Positions 1 to 18,094 of a stretch of DNA of 64,000 nucleotides are shown here, piece by piece. The stretch spans positions 1-64,000 of the forward strand of contig JASANH010000830.1 in assembly GCA_030248295.1 (NCBI GenBank), in the 5' to 3' direction. This DNA comes from Mesodorylaimus sp. YZB2_4. Lineage: Eukaryota > Nematoda > Enoplea > Dorylaimida > Dorylaimidae. Each line of letters starts with the position of its first letter. Positions within the stretch are counted from its first letter, which is position 1. Below the pieces are notes generated by a model. It did not search any database. It was not told the DNA's origin and saw only the letters and a program-made list of their open reading frames with translations. The translations under genes and the position numbers were made by a program.

Positions 1-3000
1 ATCGAAGAGGAAAAACGGAAGCTGGAGACAGTGCGAACTCAGGCGATCCAGGCGCGGGTACAGGTAATAGCAGAAAAGAACCGTCTCTTTCAGGCTCAGC
101 AGGACCGAGGCCAGTGGCCCTCGCCAGTGGGAAGCCAGCAGACTGCGCTGCCCAGTGGGCCTCGCGATGACGAGTCTGACGCGGGGCTGGAAGACGAACT
201 GGATCGCCCGGTAAAGGTAACCACGGACAGTGCATGGTATCGATGGGAAGAATTTATGCTATCGAAAGACGTGGAATTCTGGCAGGCATTGGTTTCCCTG
301 TTGGCCCCGGGGGTATACCCTCAGGTGGGCGAGGAACTGACGATCGATGCGCTTCGGCAGACGGCACGAGTGGCGGCGGCAACCAAAGCCCAGCGGGAGG
401 CCTCTGCGGCATACGGCCCATTATCAGGTAATATGCAGTTTTATTTCACCCGAACAGTGCAGGAGATGAGCGGGGGCTTCCAGACAGTGTCAGTGACACC
501 ACCTAGGACGCTGTACGTGCGATACTTGGATCCGGACACGGGGGAGCCCTTGGCCAGGGACCCAACAACGAAGCGATTTTTGTTGCCCGAGGCCCAGCCA
601 CCACCGGACGAGTGGTGTCGGGAAGCAGTGGCTGAGGCCGCGGCGTCAGGGTCAGCAATGTCGGCCAGAATGGTAACGACCCGAGTGGCGGACCCGCCGT
701 TGATCGATTTGGGACCTGAGACGGGACCAGGCGGCGCACGAACGGCGAGCGGACGAGGTGGTGGAGGATTGGCGAACGGACCCACGGCAGGAGGGGGCAC
801 GGCACCTCAGCATGGCGAGTCTCCTCGACCCCAGAGTTCAGGGAACCCACGGGGGACAGGTAGCACTCGGAGGGTCACCTTCGGTCAGCAATTGGAAAGA
901 CAAAACGACGATGACGAGGACGTTCCCGTCGAGTATCGGAATTTGACCAAGCGGCAGCTGTGCGAAGAGATAGCGGCCTATCAGTATCAAGCGGACTTGG
1001 CCCAGACGGCGGTCCAGAAGCAAGCGGCCAGTGCGACAGCGCCAGGGGCGCCTGAGCGGACGAGGGATTCCGCGGAATTGGCCAACGCGTTGGCCAGTGT
1101 CATGGCCCCGGTCGCAGCGCAGTTGGCCCAGCTCGCGCCAGAAATCAAGCAGTTGGCCACGGAAGTGAAGTCTTTGGCGTCGCCGCCTAGCAGTAAGGAG
1201 CCCACGGATCAGGCAGGTGAGCGCGATACAGAGTCGGTTGCAGGGGAGGACTTGGTCGATTATGAGCGTCGGCAGGTGCTGAATGCAAAGGCGCCACCAC
1301 CAGGTAAGCTAACGGGTGTCCCGCCGCTCAACTGGAAAGGATCGTGCGTGCAGCTGGCTTTGGCCAAGGGCAAGGCGCCCCAACTGAACATCAAGCCCTA
1401 CTCGGCCGATGTGGACGCCCCCCCGTTAGACGAGTGGTTGAAGAATTTTCATACGAGAATGCGCAAGATGCAAGCGGCGACCGACTTGGAGTTGCTCACG
1501 GTGTTGCCCTTCTATTTGGAGGGGACTGCTAGTCAGTGGTTCGATCAGTACGAAACGGCGCACCCGGATCCGTCGGCCATGACGTGGACGAAAGTGGTGG
1601 ACGACATGTGCGCCCACTTTCAAACGCGGAATAAATCGTATCTGTATGCGGCGTTCCGGCAAACGAAGCCCATGCCAGGTGAGAATTTAAGGGGATACGC
1701 CAACAGGTTGGAGCGTGCGGCCCTGAAAGCGATGCCTGACTATAAGCCGCAGGATCGCGAGTGGCAGCTGGTAGACACGTTTCGAACGCACGTCCCGGCC
1801 GCTCTGCAGGAGGCGTTGAAGGTTCGCTTCACGGATGATGGAAATCCAGTCGTTTTCGAGCAAATCAAGACGTACGCAGCGAACTGGGAGCTGGATGTGT
1901 CATCGAAGGCCACGAGATCTGCGACAACGGCGAAGCCAGTGGCAGTCGCGGCTGCGGTCGCTGTCGAGGAAGACGGGGTATCAGGTATGGAATATAATGC
2001 AGACGTTCACGCGGTTTTAGGACGAGCCCCGACGCACCCGGTGCACTACGGATACCAAGGAGCACCCATGTCGGTCCCGCCAGCAACGCAGAACCCGCCG
2101 CTGGCACGGACGAACGTGGCCCAGTTCCAGGGGAACCGTGGGGGAGGACAACAAAGCGGTAACCAGGGCGCGGCCCGTGGACGGGGAAGGCCGTATGGAT
2201 CACAAGGGAATCTGCATCAGGCGACTTCGGGCAACAATGAACGACAGTATGGTGGCCAGCAGCTATCACAGGACGACGGTCAGTATACTGCAGCAAGGCC
2301 TAGGAGGCCACCGCCAACAGGCATCGGCATCCGTATCTACTCGTGTCCAACCACGGGATTCACGTACGATTCGGCGGTGCAGCCACGGCCGCATATCGAT
2401 TCAGAGAATATCACGTGTAACGAATGTAAGCAGATGGGTCATATCGCGGCGTTGTGTCCGGAGCGACCGCCGTGCGAGGTCATGGGATGCAAACGGACCC
2501 CGGGGCATGGGAATCTGCGGTGCCCCCTGCTGTACCTTAACGATCTGATTGATGCAGGAAACAATCGGCATTCGCAGCAAACGGCGCCGCCGGGGCCGCA
2601 GCCGCAGGAGCCGCGGCAACCTACGCCAGCAACGTATTACTCCAATCGGCAGCCAGCAGGCGCACTTATTCGGCAAGTGGTCATGGACCGGGTATCGACG
2701 CCAGGGGCGGATGAGCAGGTACCGGCTGGGGTACGAGAACATGTGGAGGCTGACGAGCGCGTCCCGTTCGAGCGGCAGCCCCACGAGATCCCGTCCGATG
2801 CGATCCGGCCCCAGTGGGCCTATGGAGACGAAGAGGAAAGACGGCATCACCTCCGTGATGTCGCGCAGGTAAGTCATATGATTTGCTTCCCAGAACGATT
2901 GACGTTAGTCCCTTTGGAGCGACACGCATCGCCAGAGGTGATCATTGGTGTAGACGGCCGAAGGGTGCAGGTGATCCTGGATTCGGGAGCGACAGTGTCG

Positions 3001-6000
3001 CTGGTATCGAGCAGTTTGCTCAAGCAGCTTCATCCCGATTGGACGGAAGAATCGTGTAAACCCTGCCCGGTCAAAGTGCGAACAGTGGATAACCCCAGCC
3101 CAAGGATCTTGGGCACAATGGACCTCGTACTGACCTTTGGTAAGTACTCCGTGTTGCACGAAATTATCGTTTTAAAGGATCCAGAGGGCCTATTGACCAT
3201 GTTGGTGGGGCAGGACCTGCTCCACGCCTATGAGGCCACTATATGCGCGAAAGAGAAGAAAGTTACGTTTCGTTTTGGCAAAACGCCCAACGTTGAAATC
3301 CCGTATGCGAACCATGGTCCAGCCGCACCGATTGGGAATGCCTCGGTGGTTGGTGGCAAAGTGGTGGTCCCGGCCCGCACCTCAAGGATGGTGGAAGTAG
3401 CAGTGGCATTCGCTGTGGCTGATGGCCCCAGGTACGTGGTTCTCGAGCAGAGCCCTCACACGATGGAAGGAATTGAGCTGGTTATTCCTAGGGGGCAGTG
3501 GAACCCGACTGACATGCCTGACGTGTTCAAGGTTCCGGTATACAACCTGGCGAATCAGGATAAGGAGATAGCGGGCATCGTCATGGATGCGTATGCAGCG
3601 GACGAATTCGTCTATAGGCCGGTCGAGCAGGTTGGAGTGTCGATGGTGGCGGGAGTGGCATTGGCGCCGGATGTGCAGGCGGCCGCAGCGGGATTGGAAC
3701 CCAGTGTTCAGAGTCCAGGTAAGACTGAAGCTGCAGGGCAGCCAAATCCAACGTCCAGGGGACCTATGCCAGCAGGGGTGGACTCGACGCCCCCGATCGG
3801 CTCTGCTGAGCATCGGGCTGGTGTTATGGAACGGGTGGTCATTGGAGACTCGTGGACGGAGGAAGAAAAGGCGATGTTGCGTACTACGATCGAACGGAAC
3901 GTAGACGTTTTTGCGTATAGTGATGCTCACCTGACGACTACAAATTTGGTACAGCATCGGATCAACACGGGGACGCACAAACCAGTCAAGCAACCCCATC
4001 GGCGCGTGGCTGCACCGTTGGTCCCATTGGTTAAGGAATGGCTCGAGAACTATCTCAAACTGAACATCATCGAGCCGTCTTATTCGCAGTACGCGTCGCC
4101 AGTGGTCATGGTGAAGAAAAAAGATGGTACGGTACGTTTTTGTATTGACTTTCGGGAGGTGAACAAGCAGACCGCCCAGGATATGTACCCTTTGCCTGTT
4201 ATCCGGGATGTCTTGGACACTCTAAAGGGATCGATGGTCTTTTCAACTTTGGACGCAGCCAGTGGCTACCACCAGATCGCGTTGGACCCGGAAACGGCTG
4301 ATCGGACGGCGTTTTGCACCCAGTTCGGGTTGTATCAATTTAAGACGATGCCCTATGGCGTCATCAACGGCCCCGCTTGTTTTCAGCGCCTGATGGAAAT
4401 GGTATTGAATGGTCTCACGTGGCAAATTTGCATGGCATACATCGATGACGTAATCGTGTTCAGCCCAACGGTGGCGGAGCACTGCAAACATTTAGCGGAA
4501 ATCTTTGATCGGTTTCGGCAGGCGAACCTGAAGCTGCAGGCAAAGAAGTGCTCGTTTGGCCTGGCCGAGGTGCACTACTTGGGGCATCGGGTCAGCAAGG
4601 GTGGTATCGCGCCATTGCCGTCCAAGATAGATGTCATACGTAAGTGGCCCATTCCCCAAACGGCGAAGCAGTTGCATAGCTTTCTAGGCCTAGTGGGCTA
4701 TTACAGGATGTTCATTCCAGCGTTTGCTAGGAGGGCCAAGCCGTTGTATGACCTGATGAATGATGGCCGTCCACCGGCCGAGAGGGAATACTGGGGTCAG
4801 GTGCATACACAAGCGTTTGAGCATTTGAAGCACCTGTTGATCACTGAACCTGTTTTGAGGTATCCCGATTTTCAATACGAATTTGCGGTCACTACGGATG
4901 CAAGTGGCCTCGCGATTGGAGCAGTGCTCGAGCAATACGACGTCAAGGACCCTAACGCACGATGGGTGATCGAATTTGCGTCACGGAAGCTAAAGGATCC
5001 CGAATTGAGGCTCAGTGTGCCGGCGCAGGAGGCACTGGCGATCGTGTGGGCAGTGAATCGATGGAGGCACTACTTGGCACCTGTCAAGTTTGTAGTGTAT
5101 ACGGACCATGCTCAGTTAGTGAAGTGGTTTACTAGGAAAATCAAGGAAGGGCCACTGGGTGAGTTGACGATGGCTTTGCAGAGTTACAATTTCGAGGTGG
5201 TGTACCGGCCCGGGCGAACGAATATCAACGCGGACGTGCTGAGTCGGATCCCGCATATGGATTGCCTCAATGACTTATGGGACGATGCCGGAGCGCAACA
5301 ACGTCTAGCTGATTATTTACGTACAGGTGAGTACACCCTGGGAGATGATGGGATCGTGTTGGACAAAGAGCCCCCGGAGATGGGTCTGCATTGCGAGGCC
5401 CCGATGCGAGAACTGGACCAACCAGTCCAGCCAGTGGCTCGTCGTATTGAAGTCGAGCAGGCCCCGCGGTCGATTCTACTACGTGATGGCCAACCATCGG
5501 CACATTATGGGGCGAAACCTCACTTTTGCGAGACGGTGCAGTGGACTGCGCAGCCCAAGTGGATCGTGTCGGAGAATCGGCTGGACGGCTCGGTGAATAA
5601 TCGATGGCCGCCAAGGACACGTGAGTATCATATCACGAAACTGCCAGGGGTAGTGCCCTTACTGGAGCAAACGTTCGGTGAGGTGTTGCGGCGAAGATAT
5701 CGTATTTCGAAAAAGTGTCCCGATCGTATTAGGCATCGGGTACCTAAGGCGAGCGTGCTATTGGAGTTGCGGGGTCTGGGGCCAACCCTGGACTCGGCTA
5801 CTACATCTGATCCCCACGTTTCAGTCAAACAGACGCGAACCCGTCAAACGGAACTATTGCCCATGGATGAACCGGATGTGCAGATATCGGGCCCAGTACA
5901 GGCACTGGCGGTGGAACCGGAAGGGTCAGGGGCCCCAGCGGAGCTGGAAGCAATCAACACCAGTGTGACTCAGCCCAGTGGTGAGGTATTTCATATTTTG

Positions 6001-7689
6001 CCCCCTGACTTCGATTACCGGGCGGGCATGGTAAGGGCGGGTGAATGTTCATGGCCGACCTCAGGACTGTACCTTGACTTCATGTTACTATTTCGGAATG
6101 CGACCCCACCACGGCGGGCTACGGCGGAAGCGGCGGGGTATGACTTGGCTAGTGCAGTAGACCGGATAATCGAACCTGGCGGCATGGCGGTGTGCAGGAC
6201 TGATTTGCAGCTGCGGTTTCCGAAGGGCTGCTACAGTCGTATTGCCCCTCGCTCGGGACTGGCGGTGCAGCACATGATCTCAGTGGGGGCTGGGGTAATC
6301 GACCCTGACTATCGAGGCGACGTGCGGGTGGTGCTGTTCACTCATGGGGTGGACACCGTCCAGATTACTCGGGGAATGCGAATAGCGCAGTTGATTTTGG
6401 AGCGCCATATGGTGCCCGAGGCACGACAGGTCTGGCAGCAAGATCCCACCGCGCGCGGACACGATGGCTTTGGATCAACGGGAATCTTTCAAGTACAGAC
6501 CAATTTTCTAGATACGTACGTTCCCCCGCAGTCGCAGAATGGCGAGGTAGTCCCCATTTCGGTGGTGGACGCCTCAGTCGCAGTTGCTAAGGTGCGGGCA
6601 TTGTTCCAAGACGATGACGATTTATTTTCGACAAATGGACTGGCAGCGCCCGATTGCGTGTGCATTCGGCAGCAGCATCAGAACCTGGACTTGGCCCCGT
6701 TGCCCCCTATGGTCGACTGGGGACTGGACGCAGCGGTTGTGGCCAGTGTGCAAGGATACGAATCGGTAAGTGAATTTGACTTTGGCGTCCATGCCCCACA
6801 GCAGGACGATCTGCTTTCGCCCGGCGAGTTGCTCCCGAATCGTTCGCAGCTCAAGGAGGCGCAGTACGCCCAGCCGGGATTACGAAGTATTATCGATAAG
6901 TTGCAGGGCAACTTCCCTTTGGCCACGGTATGGGGGCGCTCTAAACGGTTTTTGGAAAGATGGTATGAGTTAGATGGGGACGGGGTGCTCATGAAAATAC
7001 GGCGGTTGCGTAACCCCAGGCGAGATGTGTTGGTGACAGTCGTCCCCGCGCCGTATCGAAAGCTAATTTTCATCGCCCACCATTCCCCTGCGGACCGTAT
7101 TTCAGACCACCCAGGTGCTCACCGTACGTTGGCTGCGTTGGCCGACCACTATTTTTGGGACACGATGGTGCAGGACGTTCAACGTTGGTGCGCAGCCTGC
7201 TTGAAGTGTAAGTTACGCAAGCCAGATCGTGTTAATCGGGTCCCGGCCTTGACGCCAATGCCAGTCCCCGATGGGCCATTTACGCACTGGGCAGTGGATT
7301 CGATGGGACCACTCAAAGAAACCAAGCACGGAAATCGGTATCTGGTCAACTTCATCGACCTGTTTACCAAGTATGTTTATCTGTGTCCAGTCCCAGATAT
7401 CAGGGCGCGTACTGTGGCGAAGACGTTTTTCAACACTGTGTATTTGAAGCACCCGCAAGCGGCATGGTTGCTCTCGGATTGTGGCCCGGAATATCGAAAC
7501 AACATGCTCAAGCATCTGTGCTCGGAGTTGAAGGTAACGAAGAAATTTACGACCCCATGGCACCCGCAGGGTAACGGACAAGTCGAGCGGCTAAACCAAA
7601 AGGTGGGTGATGTCATTGCTTCCCATTTGGATGATGGGGTGGAGGACTGGGATGAAGTAGCCCCACTAGCACAGTGTGCCATTAACTAA
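1..7689 (+). CDS. Gag-Pol polyprotein of the retrotransposon (5' partial; stops inside integrase)
   Basis: The frame is open from base 1; the first ATG is at 31 but the true start is probably upstream. Visible domains: a retrotransposon-Gag region near 1400-1720; a CCHC knuckle at 2416-2457 (C-x2-C-x4-H-x4-C); an aspartic protease with DSGAT at 2980-2994; RT with YIDD at 4438-4449; RNase H with its first aspartate at 4897; a dUTPase with all five motifs between 6136 and 6483; an integrase zinc-binding region near 7060-7210; and a catalytic core with D at 7297, D at 7477 and E at 7585 (DD35E). It ends at TAA 7687-7689, in the core-to-C-terminal region of integrase, and the same frame continues just beyond. 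The polyprotein would make and insert the cDNA copy. As it stands, integrase lacks its C-terminal part. Confidence 0.93.
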   Translation: MEEEKRKLETVRTQAIQARVQVIAEKNRLFQAQQDRGQWPSPVGSQQTALPSGPRDDESDAGLEDELDRPVKVTTDSAWYRWEEFMLSKDVEFWQALVSLLAPGVYPQVGEELTIDALRQTARVAAATKAQREASAAYGPLSGNMQFYFTRTVQEMSGGFQTVSVTPPRTLYVRYLDPDTGEPLARDPTTKRFLLPEAQPPPDEWCREAVAEAAASGSAMSARMVTTRVADPPLIDLGPETGPGGARTASGRGGGGLANGPTAGGGTAPQHGESPRPQSSGNPRGTGSTRRVTFGQQLERQNDDDEDVPVEYRNLTKRQLCEEIAAYQYQADLAQTAVQKQAASATAPGAPERTRDSAELANALASVMAPVAAQLAQLAPEIKQLATEVKSLASPPSSKEPTDQAGERDTESVAGEDLVDYERRQVLNAKAPPPGKLTGVPPLNWKGSCVQLALAKGKAPQLNIKPYSADVDAPPLDEWLKNFHTRMRKMQAATDLELLTVLPFYLEGTASQWFDQYETAHPDPSAMTWTKVVDDMCAHFQTRNKSYLYAAFRQTKPMPGENLRGYANRLERAALKAMPDYKPQDREWQLVDTFRTHVPAALQEALKVRFTDDGNPVVFEQIKTYAANWELDVSSKATRSATTAKPVAVAAAVAVEEDGVSGMEYNADVHAVLGRAPTHPVHYGYQGAPMSVPPATQNPPLARTNVAQFQGNRGGGQQSGNQGAARGRGRPYGSQGNLHQATSGNNERQYGGQQLSQDDGQYTAARPRRPPPTGIGIRIYSCPTTGFTYDSAVQPRPHIDSENITCNECKQMGHIAALCPERPPCEVMGCKRTPGHGNLRCPLLYLNDLIDAGNNRHSQQTAPPGPQPQEPRQPTPATYYSNRQPAGALIRQVVMDRVSTPGADEQVPAGVREHVEADERVPFERQPHEIPSDAIRPQWAYGDEEERRHHLRDVAQVSHMICFPERLTLVPLERHASPEVIIGVDGRRVQVILDSGATVSLVSSSLLKQLHPDWTEESCKPCPVKVRTVDNPSPRILGTMDLVLTFGKYSVLHEIIVLKDPEGLLTMLVGQDLLHAYEATICAKEKKVTFRFGKTPNVEIPYANHGPAAPIGNASVVGGKVVVPARTSRMVEVAVAFAVADGPRYVVLEQSPHTMEGIELVIPRGQWNPTDMPDVFKVPVYNLANQDKEIAGIVMDAYAADEFVYRPVEQVGVSMVAGVALAPDVQAAAAGLEPSVQSPGKTEAAGQPNPTSRGPMPAGVDSTPPIGSAEHRAGVMERVVIGDSWTEEEKAMLRTTIERNVDVFAYSDAHLTTTNLVQHRINTGTHKPVKQPHRRVAAPLVPLVKEWLENYLKLNIIEPSYSQYASPVVMVKKKDGTVRFCIDFREVNKQTAQDMYPLPVIRDVLDTLKGSMVFSTLDAASGYHQIALDPETADRTAFCTQFGLYQFKTMPYGVINGPACFQRLMEMVLNGLTWQICMAYIDDVIVFSPTVAEHCKHLAEIFDRFRQANLKLQAKKCSFGLAEVHYLGHRVSKGGIAPLPSKIDVIRKWPIPQTAKQLHSFLGLVGYYRMFIPAFARRAKPLYDLMNDGRPPAEREYWGQVHTQAFEHLKHLLITEPVLRYPDFQYEFAVTTDASGLAIGAVLEQYDVKDPNARWVIEFASRKLKDPELRLSVPAQEALAIVWAVNRWRHYLAPVKFVVYTDHAQLVKWFTRKIKEGPLGELTMALQSYNFEVVYRPGRTNINADVLSRIPHMDCLNDLWDDAGAQQRLADYLRTGEYTLGDDGIVLDKEPPEMGLHCEAPMRELDQPVQPVARRIEVEQAPRSILLRDGQPSAHYGAKPHFCETVQWTAQPKWIVSENRLDGSVNNRWPPRTREYHITKLPGVVPLLEQTFGEVLRRRYRISKKCPDRIRHRVPKASVLLELRGLGPTLDSATTSDPHVSVKQTRTRQTELLPMDEPDVQISGPVQALAVEPEGSGAPAELEAINTSVTQPSGEVFHILPPDFDYRAGMVRAGECSWPTSGLYLDFMLLFRNATPPRRATAEAAGYDLASAVDRIIEPGGMAVCRTDLQLRFPKGCYSRIAPRSGLAVQHMISVGAGVIDPDYRGDVRVVLFTHGVDTVQITRGMRIAQLILERHMVPEARQVWQQDPTARGHDGFGSTGIFQVQTNFLDTYVPPQSQNGEVVPISVVDASVAVAKVRALFQDDDDLFSTNGLAAPDCVCIRQQHQNLDLAPLPPMVDWGLDAAVVASVQGYESVSEFDFGVHAPQQDDLLSPGELLPNRSQLKEAQYAQPGLRSIIDKLQGNFPLATVWGRSKRFLERWYELDGDGVLMKIRRLRNPRRDVLVTVVPAPYRKLIFIAHHSPADRISDHPGAHRTLAALADHYFWDTMVQDVQRWCAACLKCKLRKPDRVNRVPALTPMPVPDGPFTHWAVDSMGPLKETKHGNRYLVNFIDLFTKYVYLCPVPDIRARTVAKTFFNTVYLKHPQAAWLLSDCGPEYRNNMLKHLCSELKVTKKFTTPWHPQGNGQVERLNQKVGDVIASHLDDGVEDWDEVAPLAQCAIN

Positions 7690-9510
7690 GCGTATTCGGA
7701 GCCTTTGGGCATGTCCCCGTACGAAGCCGCGTTTGGAGTAAAACCGACGAAGGAATTGGATGAACTGCTGGGGCAGCCAATCACGCCCGCGCGGCAGACC
7801 AAAGGCACAACGGAAGCTAAGGCATTTTTGGAAGAGCGGAGGCAGCGATTGGAACAAGTTCGTATCAAACTACGGGAACGCCTGAAAAAGGCCAAAGCTA
7901 AAATGGCCGCGGACCACAACAGGTATCGCGCGGGTAAGTTCCGATTTGCAGTGGGCGATTTCGTGGTCCGAAGGAATCATTCTAAGGACCTCAACAAATT
8001 TCGTAACCGTTTTGTGGGCCTTTACAGAATCGTGCAGGTTGTGGATTCATCATCTGTGGCGTTCATCGTCCCTTGTGTGTCACCAGGGGACGCGCCTAAG
8101 CCAGTCAATTTTGCGGATTTAGCAATCTATCACCCGGAAGTATCGACGGGGGCGGATAATGAAAATGAAGTACTGGATCAGTTTCAGTTCGCCGACAGTC
8201 AGGAGCAAGACGGGGCCGAGCAGCAACCGAATGATGAGTATGACGGGGTGACCCAGCGTCGAGGGCCAGGGGCCTTAGACCCAGTCCAGGAGCCAGCGGA
8301 ACCGCAATCGACGCAGCCGCAATCGGAGATCACCACATGTTCGGACAGCGTGCAGCAGGCAGAGCGGTTCTTGGTCAATCCCCCCGAATCAATTCGCAAT
8401 GGTATCGACGAGCAATGGGCCGAGAAGTATGAACGGGGACGGGTCCTGGGCCAGCAGCTGGGTATGCAGCTGTGCCCCTTCAATGGGTCCTATCATGGGC
8501 CCCTGCAGGATGGAAGGTGCCCACGGCATGATGTGCCCTTGTTACAGGTACCGCCGCTAGACAAGGATCCGCCAAAGCACTCGACCAATCCGCTGAACCA
8601 GCTCCCTTTCGCTCCTCCGCAGTCGGAACGGAAGCCTGCCACCAATGGTAGCACGGCGTGGCCAAAGGAGGCTGAAACACTGCCGTTCGCGGGTGTGGAG
8701 CATTCGGACACCACCCCCTCGCAAAAAATCACGACCGATTTTGGAACTGGAGAAACGACACTATCAGGTCCAGAGGGCCCTCAACTGGATACGGTGGCCA
8801 GGGGCCCAATGAGGACGAATGGAGCCGAAACTGTCGATCGATCATCAACTCAAGGAGTCTCGGGCGAGCGGTCGTCTCAGGGAGCGGCCTCGGATGTGGA
8901 TTCTGATGGGCAAACCTGGGACTCGGCATCGGAGTCGGGGGCAAGCATTCAAGGACTAAGGCGTAGTGCGCGTCTGAAAGAGAAGGTGGCCCGCGCGCAT
9001 CGGCCGGAATCGGATACTATTTCGCGACGAAGTTCGACGGTGCCCTCAAGGGTATCAACCAAGCGACACGGCACTGAGCTCATGGTGGGGCAGAAAGTGC
9101 ATTGGAAACGGGCTCGAGCCAGCGCGACATGTCTCACGGAGGAAGAAGCCACGCCGGGACGGCTGGTTTGGGCATTCTATAACCAGCACAAACCGTCGTG
9201 GCCGGCCATGATCCTGGACCCAGACGATCAAAGGGCGCAAGTTTTCAAGTTGCGTGCTATCGGCATGCCCGCATTTCAACGCCCGGTCGTCTTCTTCGCA
9301 GACAATGAACGGGTGGCCGCCCTGTATCTGCGCAACTTGTACGACTACGAACGGTATCGTAACCAATTCGAGACGAACACGAAAGGCGTCCAGCGGGCAA
9401 TCACGGAAGCGGACAAGAAATTGGCGCACCGTCGGGCTAGCGCAGCAGACCCGAATTTGGAGTCGTCGGCCCCATCCACGGTGACCGACGATGTGGTGTC
9501 GCAAGAGTAA
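7690..9510 (+). pseudogene. Continuation of Pol after the in-frame stop: integrase C-terminus, linker and PWWP-like domain
   Basis: This segment is in the same frame as the upstream polyprotein and runs without a stop from 7690 to TAA 9508-9510; the first ATG inside it is at 7711. It opens with the end of the integrase core. At about 7930-8145 there is a GPY/F-like integrase C-terminal region (VGDFVVRR, then FVGLYRIVQVV). A long low-complexity linker rich in Gln, Ser and Pro follows (about 8150-9080). The last part, about 9154-9425, matches the PWWP layout: GRLVWAFY, then PSWPAMIL, then a VVFF strand, NLYDYERY, and a helix with QRAITEADKK. PWWP domains read methylated histone H3 tails and bind DNA. 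Whether this part is translated (readthrough, or from an undamaged sister copy) cannot be seen here. Confidence 0.75.
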
Positions 9511-9547
9511 CACGGTAACGTACGGATGGGGAGGCCAAGGGGGCCCA

Positions 9548-9559
9548 ATGGGGGGGAAG
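9548..9559 (+). other. Polypurine tract (plus-strand primer site)
   Basis: A purine run with seven consecutive Gs lies directly before the TG that starts the probable 3' LTR and 38 bases after the Pol stop codon. That is the usual place for an LTR-retrotransposon polypurine tract, where plus-strand DNA synthesis starts. The call rests on position and composition. Confidence 0.65.
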
Positions 9560-11519
9560 TGTGTTATTTCTTTTGCTTTTTCTTTTCTTTCTTTTGTTAT
9601 GATAGATTGACTGCGTATCTAAACTTGTGTCGATGCCGTATGCGTGTAGTGTTTGTGTCATATAGCATAATGCGTGCGTGTGTTTTGTTGGCAAGGGGGA
9701 GGAGTAGAGTAACGTGTGGCGAGGTAGTGGGAGGCGGAGCGGCTAGGACAGACGTTCGCATTCTTTGTTAGTGACTGAACCAATGGTTGGTAGGCCAAGG
9801 TGGCCCTCGCGCTTGTAGCCCATCCGTCTCTATGCAGTGGAACGAAGAAAAAGTGGTATATTGGCGTCCGTGTCTTTGTTGAAAGCCTGGTTTTGCCAGC
9901 CGATGTTATCGTGCTTTGCATATTGGAGTCGATGGCTCAGGCCTGGCCGTCGCGCTCTGGTCGGTATGGATAGCCCGACATCTGCGCGCTGGAGAAGCAA
10001 AGGCGTATGTTCGTCCGCGTCTACGTGATCAAATGGTCGAGGGCAATGGGCAGGAATGAGAAGGGACGGAACCTGGGGTCTCACCTGCTGAACGGATGAG
10101 GGGTTATGTGGTCGAGGGATTAAGGTGTGGGAATCTATGTTGATGTGCGCACATCCATGTTGTCCGTCTCTTCTTATGGTAATGGGGATATTTGGTATTC
10201 AATGGGGGGGATGGAGTGGATGGAATGGGCGCGAGTGGTCCACCTTTTGGCCGGTTCGCCAGTAGCTGGTTGGCCTCGACTTTGGTCAGTTCACATTGGA
10301 AAACTCGGCTCGCCATGGCCTTGTGTTACGGGCTTTTTGTGCAGGGCACCTCCGACAAGGAATTATAGTGCGAATGAGGCCATCGCCATTAGCGGTGGTG
10401 GCCACGATGATGCGTATGGTGAAACAAGGCCCTCCGCCGGGAGGGCATGGGTCATTTGGTCACTCTTGGAAACTACAGGTCCTCTGTTTCAGACAGTTTC
10501 GAGGAACGGTTTATCAAACGACTAGTACGATGCCACAGCCTAAACAGAAAAAGCGATGGTCCCGACATCGGTCCAGATCATCAAGCACGACCCGATCGGA
10601 GCGGTCAACTTCTTTCAAACGGCGCCGGCAACGGTCCCGGTCGCCAGGACGACGGCAAAGGAACACCAGCCAGCTGACGAACCGATGGATACGCAACAAG
10701 GTACCTCGTTGGTCAGTGCTGAAACTCTGGTGGCTGAGACAGTCGAGGATCCGGATCTATTGGGGACCATCGATATGTCCATGGAAGAGGACCTGTTGGG
10801 CCTGGCACAAGAGCCGCCCCCGAAGTACAAGCAGTGAGTGACTGGCCAGTGGTCCATAGGTGGAGACGGGTGAGAATTGGTATTTCGTGAGTGTGTGTGC
10901 TTATTTTCTTTTCTTTTCCTGCATTTTTCTTTTCGTGTTTGAGTGAGATGATATATTGCGCGGGGAAGCCGGGTTGGTTAGGTCCGCTGGGGGCTCAGCC
11001 AGACTCGGTATTCATTTATTCCCTTACTGGGTGGACCGACTATGAGACTGATTATGAGGTATATGCACCATTGCACTTAGTAGGGCAGGGCCCCACGACG
11101 GCACGACGAGAGGCAGGGCCTCCGCAGCGGGCAGTGGAAGCCCGCGAAGGGTGGGCGAGGTAGTGATGTAACGGGTTGGATATGACTGGAATACGGTAAC
11201 CGCTGTGTAGCGAGGCGCCAACGATGCTCAGGCCTGATGCTCAGGTGCAGTGATGCTCAGGTGCTAAACCCGAAACCATATTTTACCATCGGGATCCATG
11301 CTAATGAACTAAGCCTAGGGTTGGGTCGACCTGAGTGCCATGATGTATGCCCATGGCCTTTGTCCTCGACTGCCTAAGGTGCGGCCCAGCCACTTCCTGT
11401 CTGTCTGGTGTTGTTGTGCCAGTGTGTCTCGTTGTGTTCGTTAGTGTGTGGCTGCTTCCAGTAAACGCACTTGTGGATATCGGTTTCTTGTTTTGGGTCG
11501 GGCCCTAGCCCTTACAACA
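9560..11519 (+). repeat. Probable 3' LTR (about 1.96 kb)
   Basis: It begins TGTGTTA right after the polypurine tract. The best end I can find is TTACAACA at 11512-11519, which roughly inverts the start and gives the usual TG...CA ends. With no 5' LTR in the window, the boundary cannot be confirmed by comparing the two LTRs. The inside is non-coding by appearance except for an open frame at 10556-10837. The length is long for a Ty3/gypsy LTR but not without precedent. Confidence 0.5.
10556..10837 (+). CDS. Small ORF inside the LTR, possible spliced N-terminal Gag exon
   Basis: The ATG at 10556 opens a 93-residue frame ending at TGA 10835-10837; an upstream TAA at 10541-10543 bounds it. The product is acidic toward its C-terminus (MSMEEDLLG, then PPPKYKQ). 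The stop overlaps a strong splice-donor match, GTGAGTG, starting at 10834. In the 5' LTR copy this would let the reading frame be spliced to a downstream Gag exon, whose visible start (IEEEKRKLE) is a charged helix-like segment already open at base 1 of the window. No homology is recognised, and two other frames are also open over this region, so it may be chance. Confidence 0.25.
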   Translation: MVPTSVQIIKHDPIGAVNFFQTAPATVPVARTTAKEHQPADEPMDTQQGTSLVSAETLVAETVEDPDLLGTIDMSMEEDLLGLAQEPPPKYKQ

Positions 11520-11889
11520 TGGTCAATAACCGTGACCGTAATGAAAGTTTCGAGAAGGAACCATCTCTTGTGCGGCCACTGTCGGGACTCTCACTTCTCA
11601 CTTCTGGTGAAATATTTCCCACCAGAAGTGAGAATTTAAAATTTCCCCACATACCACACTTGAGCGAATTGCTCAAGACCAAAAATCTGTACCCCCGTCC
11701 CCTAAAAACTTTACCATATGTCCTCCTTGGTACCCGTTTTCACACAAAATAGGCATGCTATATACTTTGTCTTTATATATTTAGGGTCGAAATCGCAAAA
11801 ACGGCACGCACTGCTATGATTCAGCTATGGTTTTATTTCAGGTTCTGCCGTTATCGATCGCAGGCTGGAATCGACACCAGACATAACCC

Positions 11890-12172
11890 ATCTTGTAGAG
11901 CAGAAAAATGCTACAAAATGAGTCCTTCGGTATATTTAGGTCTCACACAAAAACTGCGTGGACGGAGTGGATTTCTAAAAAGTGAGACGCGTCCGCGATA
12001 TTTTTTTAGGGTCTGCAACCGCGCATACGCTCTCGTTGCAGTCGCAAACAGTCACAGGCGCGTCGCACTGTGAAAGGGACATTTTCGAAATACACGTCCT
12101 GGTGGCGATTCTATGTGACACCTGAACATACAGAAAGACTCATTTTGTAGCATTCTTCCTGCTCTACAAGAT
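11890..12172. mobile_element. MITE-like element, left-arm copy (283 bp)
   Basis: The element is bounded by inverted ends: ATCTTGTAGAGCAG at 11890 and CTGCTCTACAAGAT ending at 12172. The similarity runs about 45 bases inward (ATGCTACAAAATGAGTC against GACTCATTTTGTAGCAT). It has no convincing ORF of its own. The same 283-bp element sits at the mirrored place in the right arm, so it was present before the duplication. I saw no clear target-site duplication. Confidence 0.7.
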
Positions 12173-12587
12173 AGGCAATGAAGCTGCCGCGAGAGCTGGC
12201 CACCCTTATCCCTTATAGAGCCTCGCTTCATGACTGCTCAGCGGCTGTAGGCAAAACGGGTTGGAAGTCCCGTGGGGAGCTGGGCGGCACGGAACCCAAA
12301 AAATTTAAAAAAAGAAAAAAGATGGTACTAGCTTGATAACGGGCGATCTTTCCGCAAAATAATTGAACTGTTTAATAACTTTGATTCGATGGAATCACGT
12401 TGAGTAGAACGTTTATTTCCATGGATTGTGTACATGCAATATGTCAGTTTCGCTTGTACAGCCCAACTCAAATGACGCACGAAGCCCAAAGATGGAATCA
12501 TATGATCGGCCGATCCTACATAAGGTCGCTCCGTGGACCGTACCCTGGTCTCGAGCGAACCAGACTCGGTCTAGCTGAGCAGTCGAC

Positions 12588-12991
12588 ATGTTCTCCATGA
12601 GCGGTTTGGTCGTAATCATTTCTCTGGCGTTGATCGCATACAGCTATGCGGCTCCTGCTGCAAGTCTGAAAGAGGTTGCACCAACGGCTCCTATCAGATA
12701 CCCAGCGGCGCGCTTTGCTGGAACATCTCGGTAAGTGAAACCAAGTTTCTTAGGTGATTCGAACTACTGTACATAATTCATTTTTTCAGAATTTCTGAAC
12801 TCGAAAAGCGAGCGACTATTCGCACTGGCAATGGATCGGGTCCGAAACGACTCCTGATCCTAACAGGCGGTCTCCGGCTGCAAAAGCCGCAAAGAGTCGA
12901 TTCGGCGATGGCGGCTGCCGGAAGGTACAGCACAGACCCGTGTCATTTCTCGCTCGCCCACTGTTTTTCGAGAATATCGCGTCGACGATAA
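12588..12991 (+). CDS. Secreted peptide precursor, allatostatin-C/somatostatin-like motif (left copy)
   Basis: Exons are 12588-12730 and 12790-12991, with a 59-bp GTAAGT...TTTTTTCAG intron; the product is 114 residues. A signal peptide is clear at residues 1-21 (hydrophobic core LVVIISLALIAYSYA, then APA). Dibasic sites KR54-55 and KR67-68 lie in the propeptide, and RRR ends the protein. The last segment contains C99 and C106 in C-HFSLAH-C-F, the C-x6-C-F spacing of the disulfide ring in arthropod allatostatin C. That similarity is in spacing and the aromatic/Phe positions only. Expected role: a neuropeptide or hormone released by secretory neurons or gland cells. A TATA-like TACATAAGG lies about 70 bp upstream. 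Alternative: another class of small secreted cyclic peptide. Confidence 0.7.
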
Positions 12992-14173
12992 AAAAGACGA
13001 AATTCGGAATGGCTTTGGTTCAGTGAGGAACAGACAAGCTTCTTGGATACTTTTTGATTGATGTAAGCAGATAAGCATAAATGTGACTGTACAAGGATAT
13101 ACATACTGTAAAAATCGATAATACATCAGACAGCCTCATGGAATCCCGAATCTGCTCACGATCTAGCCTAATCTGAGCATTTGCTCATTCGCGGAGAATC
13201 GCTGAAAGTGCTGTTTATGTGTCAGACAGCAGAAACAGTTTTGCTTGTGTAAATAGACGAGACAGTGTTGCGCGATCAATTTCGAAGAAGGGACTTTTGA
13301 TCTTGCTGTTCGACCAAATTGAGAGCACCGCGCTGTACTGCACCTGTATTTGAGCTCGCGCGTATGGCTCCACTAAACTTGAGGCTTTGAGACCTGGCGC
13401 AAGAAATGACACCGACCATCTTGTATACAATTATGCAACGAGCGAAACAGTCACCGATTTAACCCTTACCTTTTACAATACGTGCAGGAGGGCTAGGGTC
13501 TGAGAGTGGCTCGAAGATCCTGTTAGTCACTCACTCTTGGCTCCTATTCATCTCCTAGCAAGCACCACATGACCGGAATTGACGACCAACCAGTGCGATC
13601 GGTCATTTGTTTCTCAGTTGGTGCATCACCCGCGATCATGTGCTCGAGCAGCATTCTTCCTGTTTTTCAGTCCATTCACTGCCAATTAAAGACCTTATTT
13701 AGACCTAGTAATTTTCTGTCAGATGCTACTTCGCAGGATAAGCACAGCATCTTACTTTATCTTTGCTTCAATATGCCAGTGTATGCTTTGATAGGTATGC
13801 TTCCTTGGCCAAATATTTAATGGCCATGTTTTTAAAGAACTGATATCATTTCACGCATGTAATCGGTGGGCGGGGCTTCGGACGTCGGCCATAGCGTATG
13901 ACAAACGGGGACATCAGATGACATCTTGTCTTCGACGTCCTTTATCACGGGACTGTTTTTGTTCCGGCTGGGTGCTGCCAGCACCATCGTCCTAGCATGG
14001 CATCAGGGAATTAATCAGGGCCACCCATGACTCTGCACTATCTGATTGTGGTCATACAAAAGGTATCTCCTTGTCGTTGAAAGTGTCAGAATAGGACAGA
14101 ATACAGAATTCACTTAATAGTTCATGATGGATTCCAGAATGACAGTCAGAAACAGATCAATTTATCAGAGAAC

Positions 14174-15460
14174 GCGGGGGTTGATTTGGCGCCTTATTAT
14201 CGGGGGTTTATTTTGCGAATCAGGATCCCTGCGAGCAACACTATGCAGGACACGCAGGATAGCCTTCCCATCATGCTTGAGCTATAGAAAAAATTGGACC
14301 GCTTGCTTATAAGATCAGACCGAATACGCTGTGAGCGAAAAATACTGCACGTCACGACAGAATGGCCATTAGAGTCAGACCCTATTAAAGCCACATATGT
14401 CCCCTTTTTTCAAATCTTGGCCTGACATTCAAACCGTTCTGGCTATGATTCTCAAATTCAAAGTCTGAACTAGAGCCATTGCAAAAATTTGAACGGCAAG
14501 GAACATTTTTTAATGCGCAATCAGCAACAAAAGAGCAGACCATCAGTAGCATAGATTGCCTGGCCTGGTCCTGCATAATGTTAGACTAACCTTGACGGGT
14601 AAGTCATGTTTTGAGTGGTGCCGTGTTGGAATGATGTGCTGCAATAGCAGCATCAGAGGTTGAGCGGAAATGCTCTCATATCGATCATGCACCAAGTCCG
14701 ACGTCTGCCTCCTTCACTTAGAAGAAAAAAATTTAAAATCGAAAAATTTTCAGCAAAATAATACAATCACTCTAACTAGTGAAATAACTTTCTAATAATC
14801 TAAATTAAATTAAAACCCAAAAAAAATTTTATTAATAATTAATAATTAATAATTATTCAACACACAATAACAAAATACAAAATAAATTATAATAACACCA
14901 TACCCCACATTTCTGCTAAAAAAAATAATTTCCTTAACAAACATAACCCTAACCACACATATATATATCTTTCCTTCTCTTTCTTTTCTAAAAATGTTGT
15001 GGGTGGCGGGGGGGGGGGGCCGGGTGGTTGGCGGGGTTGTTGGCCGTGGTTGTGCTCTGATAAGATACGATAAGACATCGCACGAAAAATTGCGCATATA
15101 GCATGAGTTACAGTACTATCAGCCATGCAAAACAGTCAAGTCTACAGCAAAGTGCGATGTAGCCGAGGTCATGGCAGGAGAACTAGGAGAAGGACTCTAA
15201 CGGAGCTGGACAGCCAGAAAAGAGAACAAAATGACACACAGATTGGCCCGATCAAGACACCGCTATATCACGCTGTGCGACTGTAGAATGCTGACATACC
15301 TAAAATCAGTGCAGTGACTTACACACTTCCACCTTCCCCAGTAGTACCACGCGGCATGGCCAGCATAATTCTTCATCCTAACAAAACCGCACTATGCGTA
15401 CAACTCTGTGGAAGTTCTGGCTGGCCCAAACTCAGGCTGAGATGCTTACATTCAGCTGGT
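14174..15460. other. Spacer between the inverted-repeat arms
   Basis: About 1.3 kb with no gene that I can support. It has a very AT-rich stretch (about 14720-14900, with repeated TTAATAATTAATAATT) and a run of 12 Gs at 15008-15019. Confidence 0.6.
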
Positions 15461-16711
15461 GTTCTCTGATAAATTGATCTGTTTCTGACTGTCATTCTGA
15501 AATCCATCATGAACTATGAAGTGTATTCTGTATTCTGTGCTGTTCTGACACTTTAAAGTCAAGGATATACCCTATGTATGACCACAATCAGATAGTGCGG
15601 AGTCATGGGTGGCCCTGATGACCTCCCTGATGGGACCGCTGACGTTGATGAGGCCAGAGTTCGGCTCTGGGCGCAAACGATGCCATGCTAGGACGATGGT
15701 GCTGGCAGCACCCGGCCGGAACGAAAACGATCTCGTGATAAAGGACGTCGAAGACAAGAGGTCATCTGATGTCCCCGTTTGTCATGCGCTATGGCCGACG
15801 TCAGAAGCCCCGCCCACCGATTACATGCGTGAAATGATATCATTTCTTTAAAAACATGGCCATTAGATATTTGGCCAAGCAAGCATACCTATCAAACCAT
15901 GCACTGGCACATTGAAGCAAAGATAAAGTAAGATGCTGTGCTTATCCTGCGAAGTAGCATCTGACAGAAAATTACTAGGTCTAAATAAGGTCTTTGATTG
16001 GCAGTGAATAGTCTGAAAAACAGGAAGAATGCTGCTCGAGCACATGATCGCGGGTGATGCCATAACTGAGAAACAAATGACCGATCGCACTAATTTGTCG
16101 TCAATTCCGGTCATGTGGTGCTCACTAGGACGTGAATAGAAGCCAAGAGTGAGTGACTAACAGGATGCTCGAGCCACTCCCACATCCTAGCCGTACTGCT
16201 CGTATTGTTAAAGGTAAGGGTTAAATCGGTGACTGTTTCGCTCGTTACGTGAACAACACGATCGACAAGATACAAGATACAAGATGGTCGGTGTCATTTC
16301 TTGCGGCAGGTCTCAAAGCCTCAAGTTTAGTGGAGCCATACGCACGAGCTTGAATACAGGTGCAGCAAAGCGCGGTGCTCTCGTTTTGGTCGAACAGCAA
16401 GATCAAAAGTCCCTTCTTCGAAATTGATCGCGCAACACTGTCTCGTCTATTTGTACAAGCAAAACTGTTTCAGCTGTCTGACACATAAATAGCACTTTGA
16501 GCGATTCTCCGCGAATGAGCAAGTGCTCAGATCGGGCTAGATGGTGAGCAGATTCGGGATTCCATGAGGCTGTCTGATGTATTATCAATTTTTACAGTAT
16601 GTATATCCTCGTCCAGTCACATTTATGCTTATCTGCTTACATCAATCAAAAAGTATCCAAGAAGCTTGTCTGCTCCTCACTAAACCAAAGCCATCCCGGA
16701 TTTCGTCTTTT

Positions 16712-17110
16712 TTATCGTCGACGCGATATTCTCGAAAAACAGTGGGCGAGCGAGAAATGACACGGGTCTGTGCTGTACCTTCCGGCACCCGCCATCGCCG
16801 AATCGACTCTTCGCGGCTTTTGCAGTCGTAGACCGCCTGTTAGGATCAGGAGTCGTTTTGGACCCGATCCATTGCCAGTGCGAATTGTCGCTGGCTTTTC
16901 GAGTTCGGAAATTCTGAAACAATGAATCATGTATTTCGAATCACCTAAGAAACTTGGTTTCACTTACCGAGATGTTCCAGCAAAGCGCGCCGCTGGGTAT
17001 CTGATAGGAGCCGTTGGTGCAACCTCTTTCAGACTTGCAGCAGGAGCCGCATAGCTGTATGCGATCAACGCCAGAGAAATGATTACGACCAAACCGCTCA
17101 TGGAGAACAT
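16712..17110 (-). CDS. Secreted peptide precursor, allatostatin-C/somatostatin-like motif (right copy)
   Basis: Exons are 17110-16968 and 16913-16712, with a 54-bp intron; the product is 114 residues. Exon 1 (143 nt, signal peptide) is identical to the left copy. Exon 2 differs at eight bases by eye: five synonymous and three replacements (R55P, Q82R, A91G). R55P removes the first dibasic site, and Q82R creates a new RR pair before the final segment. The last 23 codons, with the C-HFSLAH-C-F ring, are identical in sequence. The reading frame and splice sites are intact, so this is a probable functional paralogue. It faces the left gene (tail to tail across the spacer). Confidence 0.7.
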
Positions 17111-17518
17111 GTCGACTGCTCAGCTAGACCGAGTCTGGTTCGCTCGAGACCAGGGTACGGTCCACGGAGCGACCTTATGTAGGATCGGCCGATCATATGA
17201 TTACATCTTTGTGCGTCATTTGGGTTGGGCGGGACAAGCGAAACTGACATATTGCATGTACACAATCCATGGAAATAAACGTTCTACTCAACGTGATTCC
17301 ATCGAATCAAAGTTATTAAACAGTTCAATTATTTTGCGGAAAGATCGCCCGTTATGAAGCTAGTGCCATCTTTTTTCTTTTTTTAAATTTTTTGGGTTCC
17401 GTGCCGCCCAGCTCCCCACGGGACTTCCAACCCGTTTTGCCTACAGCCGCTGAGCAGTCATGAAGCGAGGCTCTATAAGGGATAAGGGTGGCCAGCTCTC
17501 GCGGCAGCTTCATTGCCT

Positions 17519-17801
17519 ATCTTGTAGAGCAGGAAGAATGCTACAAAATGAGTCTTTCTGTATGTTCAGGTGTCACATAGAATCGCCACCAGGACGTGTA
17601 TTTCGAAAATGTCCCTTTCACAGTGCGACGCGCCTGTGACTGTTTGCGACTGCAACGAGAGCGTATGCGCGGTTGCAGACCCTAAAAAAATATCGCGGAC
17701 GCGTCTCACTTTTTAGAAATCCACTCCGTCCACGCAGTTTTTGTGTGAGACCTAAATATACCGAAGGACTCATTTTGTAGCATTTTTCTGCTCTACAAGA
17801 T
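17519..17801. mobile_element. MITE-like element, right-arm copy (283 bp)
   Basis: This is the mirror partner of 11890-12172 with the same length and the same inverted ends (ATCTTGTAGAGCAG and CTGCTCTACAAGAT). It is non-coding. Confidence 0.7.
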
Positions 17802-18094
17802 GGGTTATGTCTGGTGTCGATTCCAGCCTGCGATCGATAACGGCAGAACCTGAAATAAAACCATAGCTGAATCATAGCAGTGCGTGCCGTTTTTGCGATT
17901 TTGACCCTAAAGATATAAAGGCAAAGTATATAGCATGCCTTTATTTCGTTAAAGCGGGTACCAAGGAGGACATATGGTGAAATTTTTAGGGGAGGGGGGA
18001 CTGTCGGTCTCGAGTAATTCGCTCAAGTACGGTATGAGGGGAAAATTTTAAATTCTCACTTCTGGCGGGAAATATCTCACGAACGGTGAGATCT

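Follow-up and report, generated by a model that had tools for sequence, protein, structure and literature searches.

A Ty3/gypsy element cut off at a contig start

The stretch of DNA analysed here (the window, 64,000 nucleotides from the nematode Mesodorylaimus sp. YZB2_4) starts at base 1 of contig C108 and opens with what its sequence identifies as the 3' part of a Ty3/gypsy LTR retrotransposon, the integrase of which ends in a PWWP domain. Because the window begins at contig base 1, inside gag, the element lacks its 5' LTR and the beginning of gag. The Pol frame, already open before base 31, is stopped by a TAA at 7687-7689, and the same frame resumes on the plus strand from 7690 to 9510 as an open stretch of 606 aa (P0001). 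As this TAA follows the integrase core and precedes the GPY/F region, the window integrase is broken. The element reads as follows:

1504..1734, plus strand: Gag capsid-like domain (Retrotrans_gag, PF03732, E 7.1e-7), in an element truncated upstream at window base 1
2947..3225, plus strand: aspartic protease region (PF13975, E 6.8e-5, under the curated cut-off)
4111..4593, plus strand: reverse transcriptase (PF00078, E 2.9e-30)
4867..5187, plus strand: RNase H (PF17917, E 2.9e-26)
6100..6483, plus strand: dUTPase, between RNase H and integrase (PF00692, E 3.1e-35)
7042..7224, plus strand: integrase zinc-binding domain (PF17921, E 1.1e-12)
7273..7566, plus strand: integrase catalytic core (PF00665, E 2.7e-9)
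7687..7689, plus strand: in-frame TAA interrupting Pol
7936..8064, plus strand: GPY/F-like region, GLY in the window and GPF in P0006 (BLASTP of P0001 aa 7-125 against P0006, E 7e-6)
8140..9153, plus strand: linker of ~340 aa (from the translation; no Pfam family inside)
9157..9420, plus strand: PWWP domain (PF00855, E 6.6e-8; 37.1 bits in the genome search)
9508..9510, plus strand: stop codon ending the Pol frame
9511..11166, plus strand: long 3' region between Pol and LTR, without an assigned gene (by exclusion)
11167..11516, plus strand: 3' LTR, 350 bp, TGTAA...TTACA (from genome matches)

The Pfam order in the window, Gag followed by protease, reverse transcriptase, RNase H and integrase, is that of Ty3/gypsy elements, with the dUTPase as an extra, and the integrase core is followed by a GPY/F module, in which the GLY variant of the window aligns with the GPF of the database element P0006. 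A dUTPase within Pol is also found in Ty3/gypsy elements of bdelloid rotifers and fungi; in the bdelloid elements, however, it lies between protease and reverse transcriptase (PMC5408684), whereas that of the window lies between RNase H and integrase. The same source reports no chromodomain after GPY/F in the bdelloid elements. In the lineage of the window, dUTPase-like sequence was seen upstream of the integrase in six of seven loci (L003-L009).

The LTR has 41 matches in the genome, itself included, and 38 of them cover at least 340 of its 350 bp. TG...CA ends and a short target duplication are features of Ty3/gypsy LTRs. This LTR has such ends, and a 4-bp duplication is present in four of the five sister LTRs that lack flanking element sequence (L042, L044, L045 and L049, not L047); in two others, L043 and L048, the primer-site-like TTGGTGCGTCGG follows the LTR. 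A first guess, which had placed the LTR at 9560-11519, was ruled out by these genome matches. On another contig, at C37:545290-551813, two same-strand LTRs (L041 and L043) stand 6.2 kb apart and are identical at 349 of 354 bases; this marks a young copy, which falls short of the >11.5 kb that the window implies.

Several other observations were made along the window. The linker contains a less repetitive island (P0001 aa 225-290, window ~8362-8559), in which the Cys/His spacing C-x6-H-x7-C-x2-H, noticed by eye, resembles a possible zinc site, with no Pfam match. The G+C fraction is 0.54-0.59 in window 1-11516 and 0.43-0.47 in the remaining window, and a large inverted repeat adjoins the element (window 11692-17999), with arms of 793 bp (98%) and several others. 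Rfam gave no match in the window at gathering thresholds. A collagen gene was recognised (PF01391, E 2.1e-25), with a C-terminal CPKYC-type motif characteristic of cuticle collagens in nematodes, and ttttcag-like intron ends were seen by eye; both point to a nematode host. A search for SL1 RNA gave no match, either in this genome or in the control genomes.

Profile evidence for the PWWP domain

The first-pass annotation had placed a PWWP-like domain at 9154-9425, at the C-terminus of the integrase, behind a GPY/F-like region and a long linker. All three parts of this reading were recovered. The comparison that it had proposed, of the 7690-9510 translation with PF00855, returned a match over the curated cut-off (33.4 bits against 25.6, E 6.6e-8) at P0001 aa 490-577. 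The 136-aa tail alone scored 36.6 bits (E 6.5e-9), and in the genome-wide PWWP search the E-value of the window domain was 4.8e-7.

Comparison with solved structures gave a graded picture. With phmmer, the tail had only weak matches, 17 up to E 1 with the best at E 0.019, headed by HDGFL3 and NSD2 (E 0.019-0.17) and followed by acetyltransferases at 0.18-0.2. A two-sequence profile built from the tails of the window and P0006 performed better: the 32 top distinct sequences, reaching E 0.19, are, judging by their names, PWWP-carrying proteins, and the first other protein is the Arc repressor at E 0.21. An AlphaFold model of the window domain from a two-row alignment was poor (pLDDT 47.3); in Foldseek, all of the best 50 of its 441 matches were PWWP entries, at weak E-values of 1.2e-3 to 1.1e-2 and TM scores of 0.28-0.34. 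The model of the P0006 domain was likewise poor (pLDDT 51.6), with ranks 2-16 titled PWWP (E 0.049-0.62) and unrelated entries thereafter. The assignment to the PWWP family is therefore carried by the profile comparisons, to which the structure models add little. In the three window proteins no chromodomain was matched by Pfam at E ≤10, and a chromodomain misread as PWWP was considered and rejected.

A probable PWWP-tailed lineage and its relatives

A search of the 145 Mb genome (1067 contigs) with the 606-aa tail piece gave 74 matches; 36 of them, the window's own among these, fall on the integrase/GPY side and the other 38 on the tail side. The Pfam PWWP profile gave 146 matches over cut-off, the best with an E-value of 6.0e-15. 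On the same strand, an integrase lies ≤3.5 kb upstream of at least 99 of these 146 (window included; median gap 595 bp) and downstream of none; one is near on the other strand in three cases. Counted from the integrase side, a PWWP lies downstream of at least 100 of 199 integrase positions, which were pooled by hand from the genome searches and include 14 of the 36 integrase-side matches of the tail piece; among the 99 that lack a PWWP are cut fragments and members of other lineages. Both counts are lower bounds, since the genome searches score best candidates only, and two of the 47 PWWP matches without an integrase in the pooled list (L019 and L024) have one by other means.

Among the 30 best-scoring PWWP loci (L010-L039), 29 show similarity to the integrase core or GPY/F ≤1.5 kb upstream, and the other, L023, lies at a contig end. 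Core and PWWP occupy one frame at 15 of 18 further loci chosen for long frames or a match to the window tail, the exceptions being L050, L066 and L067. Where a near-complete core is followed by PWWP (38 loci), the two share a frame in 35, stops disregarded, and are 167-498 aa apart, with the longest distance in the window. We selected 17 representative integrases, no pair of which is >90% identical in the core and which form 15 groups by single linkage. A PWWP is visible behind 16 of them; the contigs of L005 and two near copies end just after GPY/F, hence their lack of a visible PWWP. The integrase-half contigs L005-L007 end at one common point of the linker and the PWWP-half contigs L070-L073 start nearly there, a pattern that reflects an assembly break at a fixed place.

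The earlier suggestion to look for the domain in other copies of the family is thus answered by its recurrence both in other copies and in other families, where it holds the place at the integrase C-terminus that the chromodomain holds in chromoviruses, as had also been proposed. This recurrence bears on the thought that the similarity is due to chance, or that a host PWWP exon was joined to one dead copy by fusion or by an assembly error. The window copy is indeed broken, its contig starts within the element, and some sister contigs break in the linker; but the window match exceeds the curated cut-off and sister families reach down to E 6.0e-15, and the same order is found at many loci as well as in P0006 from another source. 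We regard such an origin as extremely improbable, and for the lineage it is refuted by the genome-wide PWWP matches with an upstream integrase.

Three loci, L066 (C141), L067 (C122) and C7:931216-931857, have frames of 1590-1616 aa. In the parts read of L066 and L067, Gag, NC and protease are joined to PWWP while reverse transcriptase, RNase H and integrase are missing, with a dUTPase remnant in L066; these are probably non-autonomous derivatives that kept the PWWP. Such frames lend some weight to the idea that the domain works with Gag or the particle, in nuclear retention or particle docking, and not with integrase. Against it, at least 99 of the 146 PWWP matches have integrase upstream, and the derivatives may be mere deletions that use integrase in trans, so that we consider a Gag-centred function quite improbable.

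A close relative is P0006, a database element of 1417 aa (source lgn), in which one intact frame runs from protease through reverse transcriptase, RNase H, integrase and GPF to PWWP. It shares this domain order with the window and is 44% identical to it over 466 aa of RT-RNase H, but differs in its short linker, in its complete aromatic cage (F-W-F) and in having no significant dUTPase (13.4 bits, cut-off 22). In the RT-RNase H tree, for which 94 proteins matched, seven shorter ones were dropped and 87 rows were kept, the two are sisters (100/99). A quick 50-row integrase tree, which left out the other copies of the genome, did not place the two together. When 17 own representatives were combined with 48 database rows, all 17 fell with P0006 on one side of a branch in the best integrase tree (support 46/86); the starred 12-row subclade (97/95) holds both the window and P0006, and P0006 is nested within the genome's set, next to L058 (97/87). 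A single capture of PWWP is the simplest reading of this placement, though not proven, support for one clade being weak (46/86). Taken together with the spread over families, an old and diversified lineage with PWWP at the chromodomain place of chromoviruses is likely.

PF00855 was present only in P0006 among 95 database Pol proteins, and the profile of the window and P0006 tails found no further PWWP in 97 proteins or in L001, a contaminant contig without PWWP that was the single find of the prokaryote-genome scan. The homologue search with P0001 scored 7994 candidates with none at E ≤10, the search with the P0006 tail returned only P0006 itself among 1130 candidates, and the viral-contig scans yielded no relative.

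Chromatin readers in Pol are already known in kind, in chromodomain-tailed elements and in one PHD-tailed element. Like the window element, chromoviruses follow the Ty3/gypsy gene order and have, C-terminal to GPY/F, a small domain of methyl-reader type that belongs to the 'Royal family' fold group, with a proposed role in targeting. They differ in carrying a chromodomain where the window carries PWWP, and in the RT-RNase H tree the window pairs with P0006 and not with a chromodomain-bearing row. The database hits P0007 and P0029 have a chromodomain in the same C-terminal place. P0055, also Ty3/gypsy, likewise ends its Pol in a chromatin reader, but of another type, a PHD (aa 2300-2344 of 2358) instead of a PWWP, and the element sits on a separate branch of the RT-RNase H tree; it also has a DNA methylase match. 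A further Ty3/gypsy Pol, P0051, has a PHD finger between RNase H and integrase and also a Dam match.

Aromatic cage, selection and a proposed chromatin tether

Of 15 PWWP pairs compared for dN/dS, two had unsaturated dS: L051/L052 (dN 0.016, dS 0.107, ratio 0.15, from very few changes) and L034/L055 (dN 0.117, dS 0.718, ratio 0.16). In the remaining 13, dS was ≥1.9 or infinite. PWWP codons are apparently under purifying selection. The sequences themselves show the domain and its position, its occurrence across families and this constraint on its codons.

The aromatic cage was compared in 17 rows, one of them P0006 and the other 16 own representatives. The first-pass annotation, noting that PWWP domains bind H3K36-methylated nucleosomes, had proposed that the element uses its PWWP to choose insertion sites, perhaps in transcribed chromatin, and had named the cage as a point to check. 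A reading of H3K36 methylation by this copy is unsupported as stated: where HDGFL3 has Y-W-F the window has K-W-F, an incomplete three-residue cage; the first aromatic is also, by eye, absent from the window-lineage rows L003, L004, L009 and L065-L067 (the last three lacking the W too), and a complete cage is found in four of the 17 rows (L034, L055, L057 and P0006). An aromatic residue fills the first position in six rows, and I, V, L, H, K, G, Q or R takes its place in the others; the central W is kept in 13 and the third position is aromatic in 16. On account of these residues, canonical H3K36-methyl reading is plausible for one sub-lineage and doubtful for that of the window, and in the window copy itself, broken and with its cage altered, it is unlikely. 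AWS domains, which are typical of H3K36 methyltransferases, gave two partial matches over cut-off in the genome.

With a first cage position that is non-aromatic in 11 of 17 rows, the PWWP might instead be a general aid to nucleosome or DNA binding, or bind some other partner, methyl reading having been lost in most families including that of the window, so that integrase would be concentrated on chromatin with no state chosen. PWWP domains are described as binding DNA through a basic surface as well (PMC4176367, PMC6877644). The window domain, however, is only mildly basic (16 K+R, 12 D+E), the third aromatic and the W are widely kept, and in some rows an aromatic residue one place earlier might stand in for the first. 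We consider this reading unlikely, though it deserves more weight than a function with Gag.

We think it probable that the window element belongs to a numerous PWWP-tailed lineage whose Pol regularly includes the domain, apparently under selection, and that the domain most likely serves as a built-in chromatin tether. Through its PWWP end the integrase would dock the integration complex on nucleosomes, contacting DNA and, where the cage is intact, methylated H3, and this docking would bias the site of cDNA insertion. One Pol protein would then provide by itself the link for which lentiviral integrase relies on the host factor LEDGF/p75. The PWWP of LEDGF/p75 is described as the key determinant of its chromatin association, and HIV-1 integration was retargeted when the chromatin-binding part of LEDGF was swapped (PMC4176367). 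If the proposed tether holds, both systems link integrase to chromatin through a PWWP; the difference is that in LEDGF/p75 it resides in a host protein that binds integrase via its IBD (PMC4176367), whereas here it is encoded in Pol. In JASPer, the preference for H3K36me3 depends on the cage (PMC6877644). The chromovirus chromodomain offers a second analogy (PMC2774666), and since the 'Royal family' unites the Tudor, chromo, PWWP, MBT and Agenet domains (PMC12147562), an exchange between chromodomain and PWWP is one between related folds. By analogy with these systems, we infer tethering, a histone ligand and a target bias for the PWWP-tailed integrase.

Three points count against a tether: the cage is incomplete in 13 of 17 rows, the window's included; the linker between core and PWWP is long and might be cut by the protease; and some derivatives have PWWP fused to Gag-protease without integrase. 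A wider scheme, which we put forward as possible but tentative, would see 'PWWP viruses' as a parallel to chromoviruses: PWWP captured once, its cage then diversified, and co-resident families reading different chromatin states and partitioning sites among themselves, some having lost methyl reading and others having kept it.

The standard example of a transposon with a chromatin reader of its own is the chromodomain integrase. In the open-access literature, to which the search was confined and which was judged mostly by titles and opening lines of abstracts, no description of a PWWP-tailed retrotransposon was found. A second reader type at the chromodomain place, in many families of one animal genome, would provide a natural comparison, in which integrase scaffold and host are the same while readers and cages differ. 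The PWWP-tailed integrase would be the one-protein counterpart of LEDGF-guided lentiviral integration, and the rule that the reader decides the site would become testable by insertion counts.
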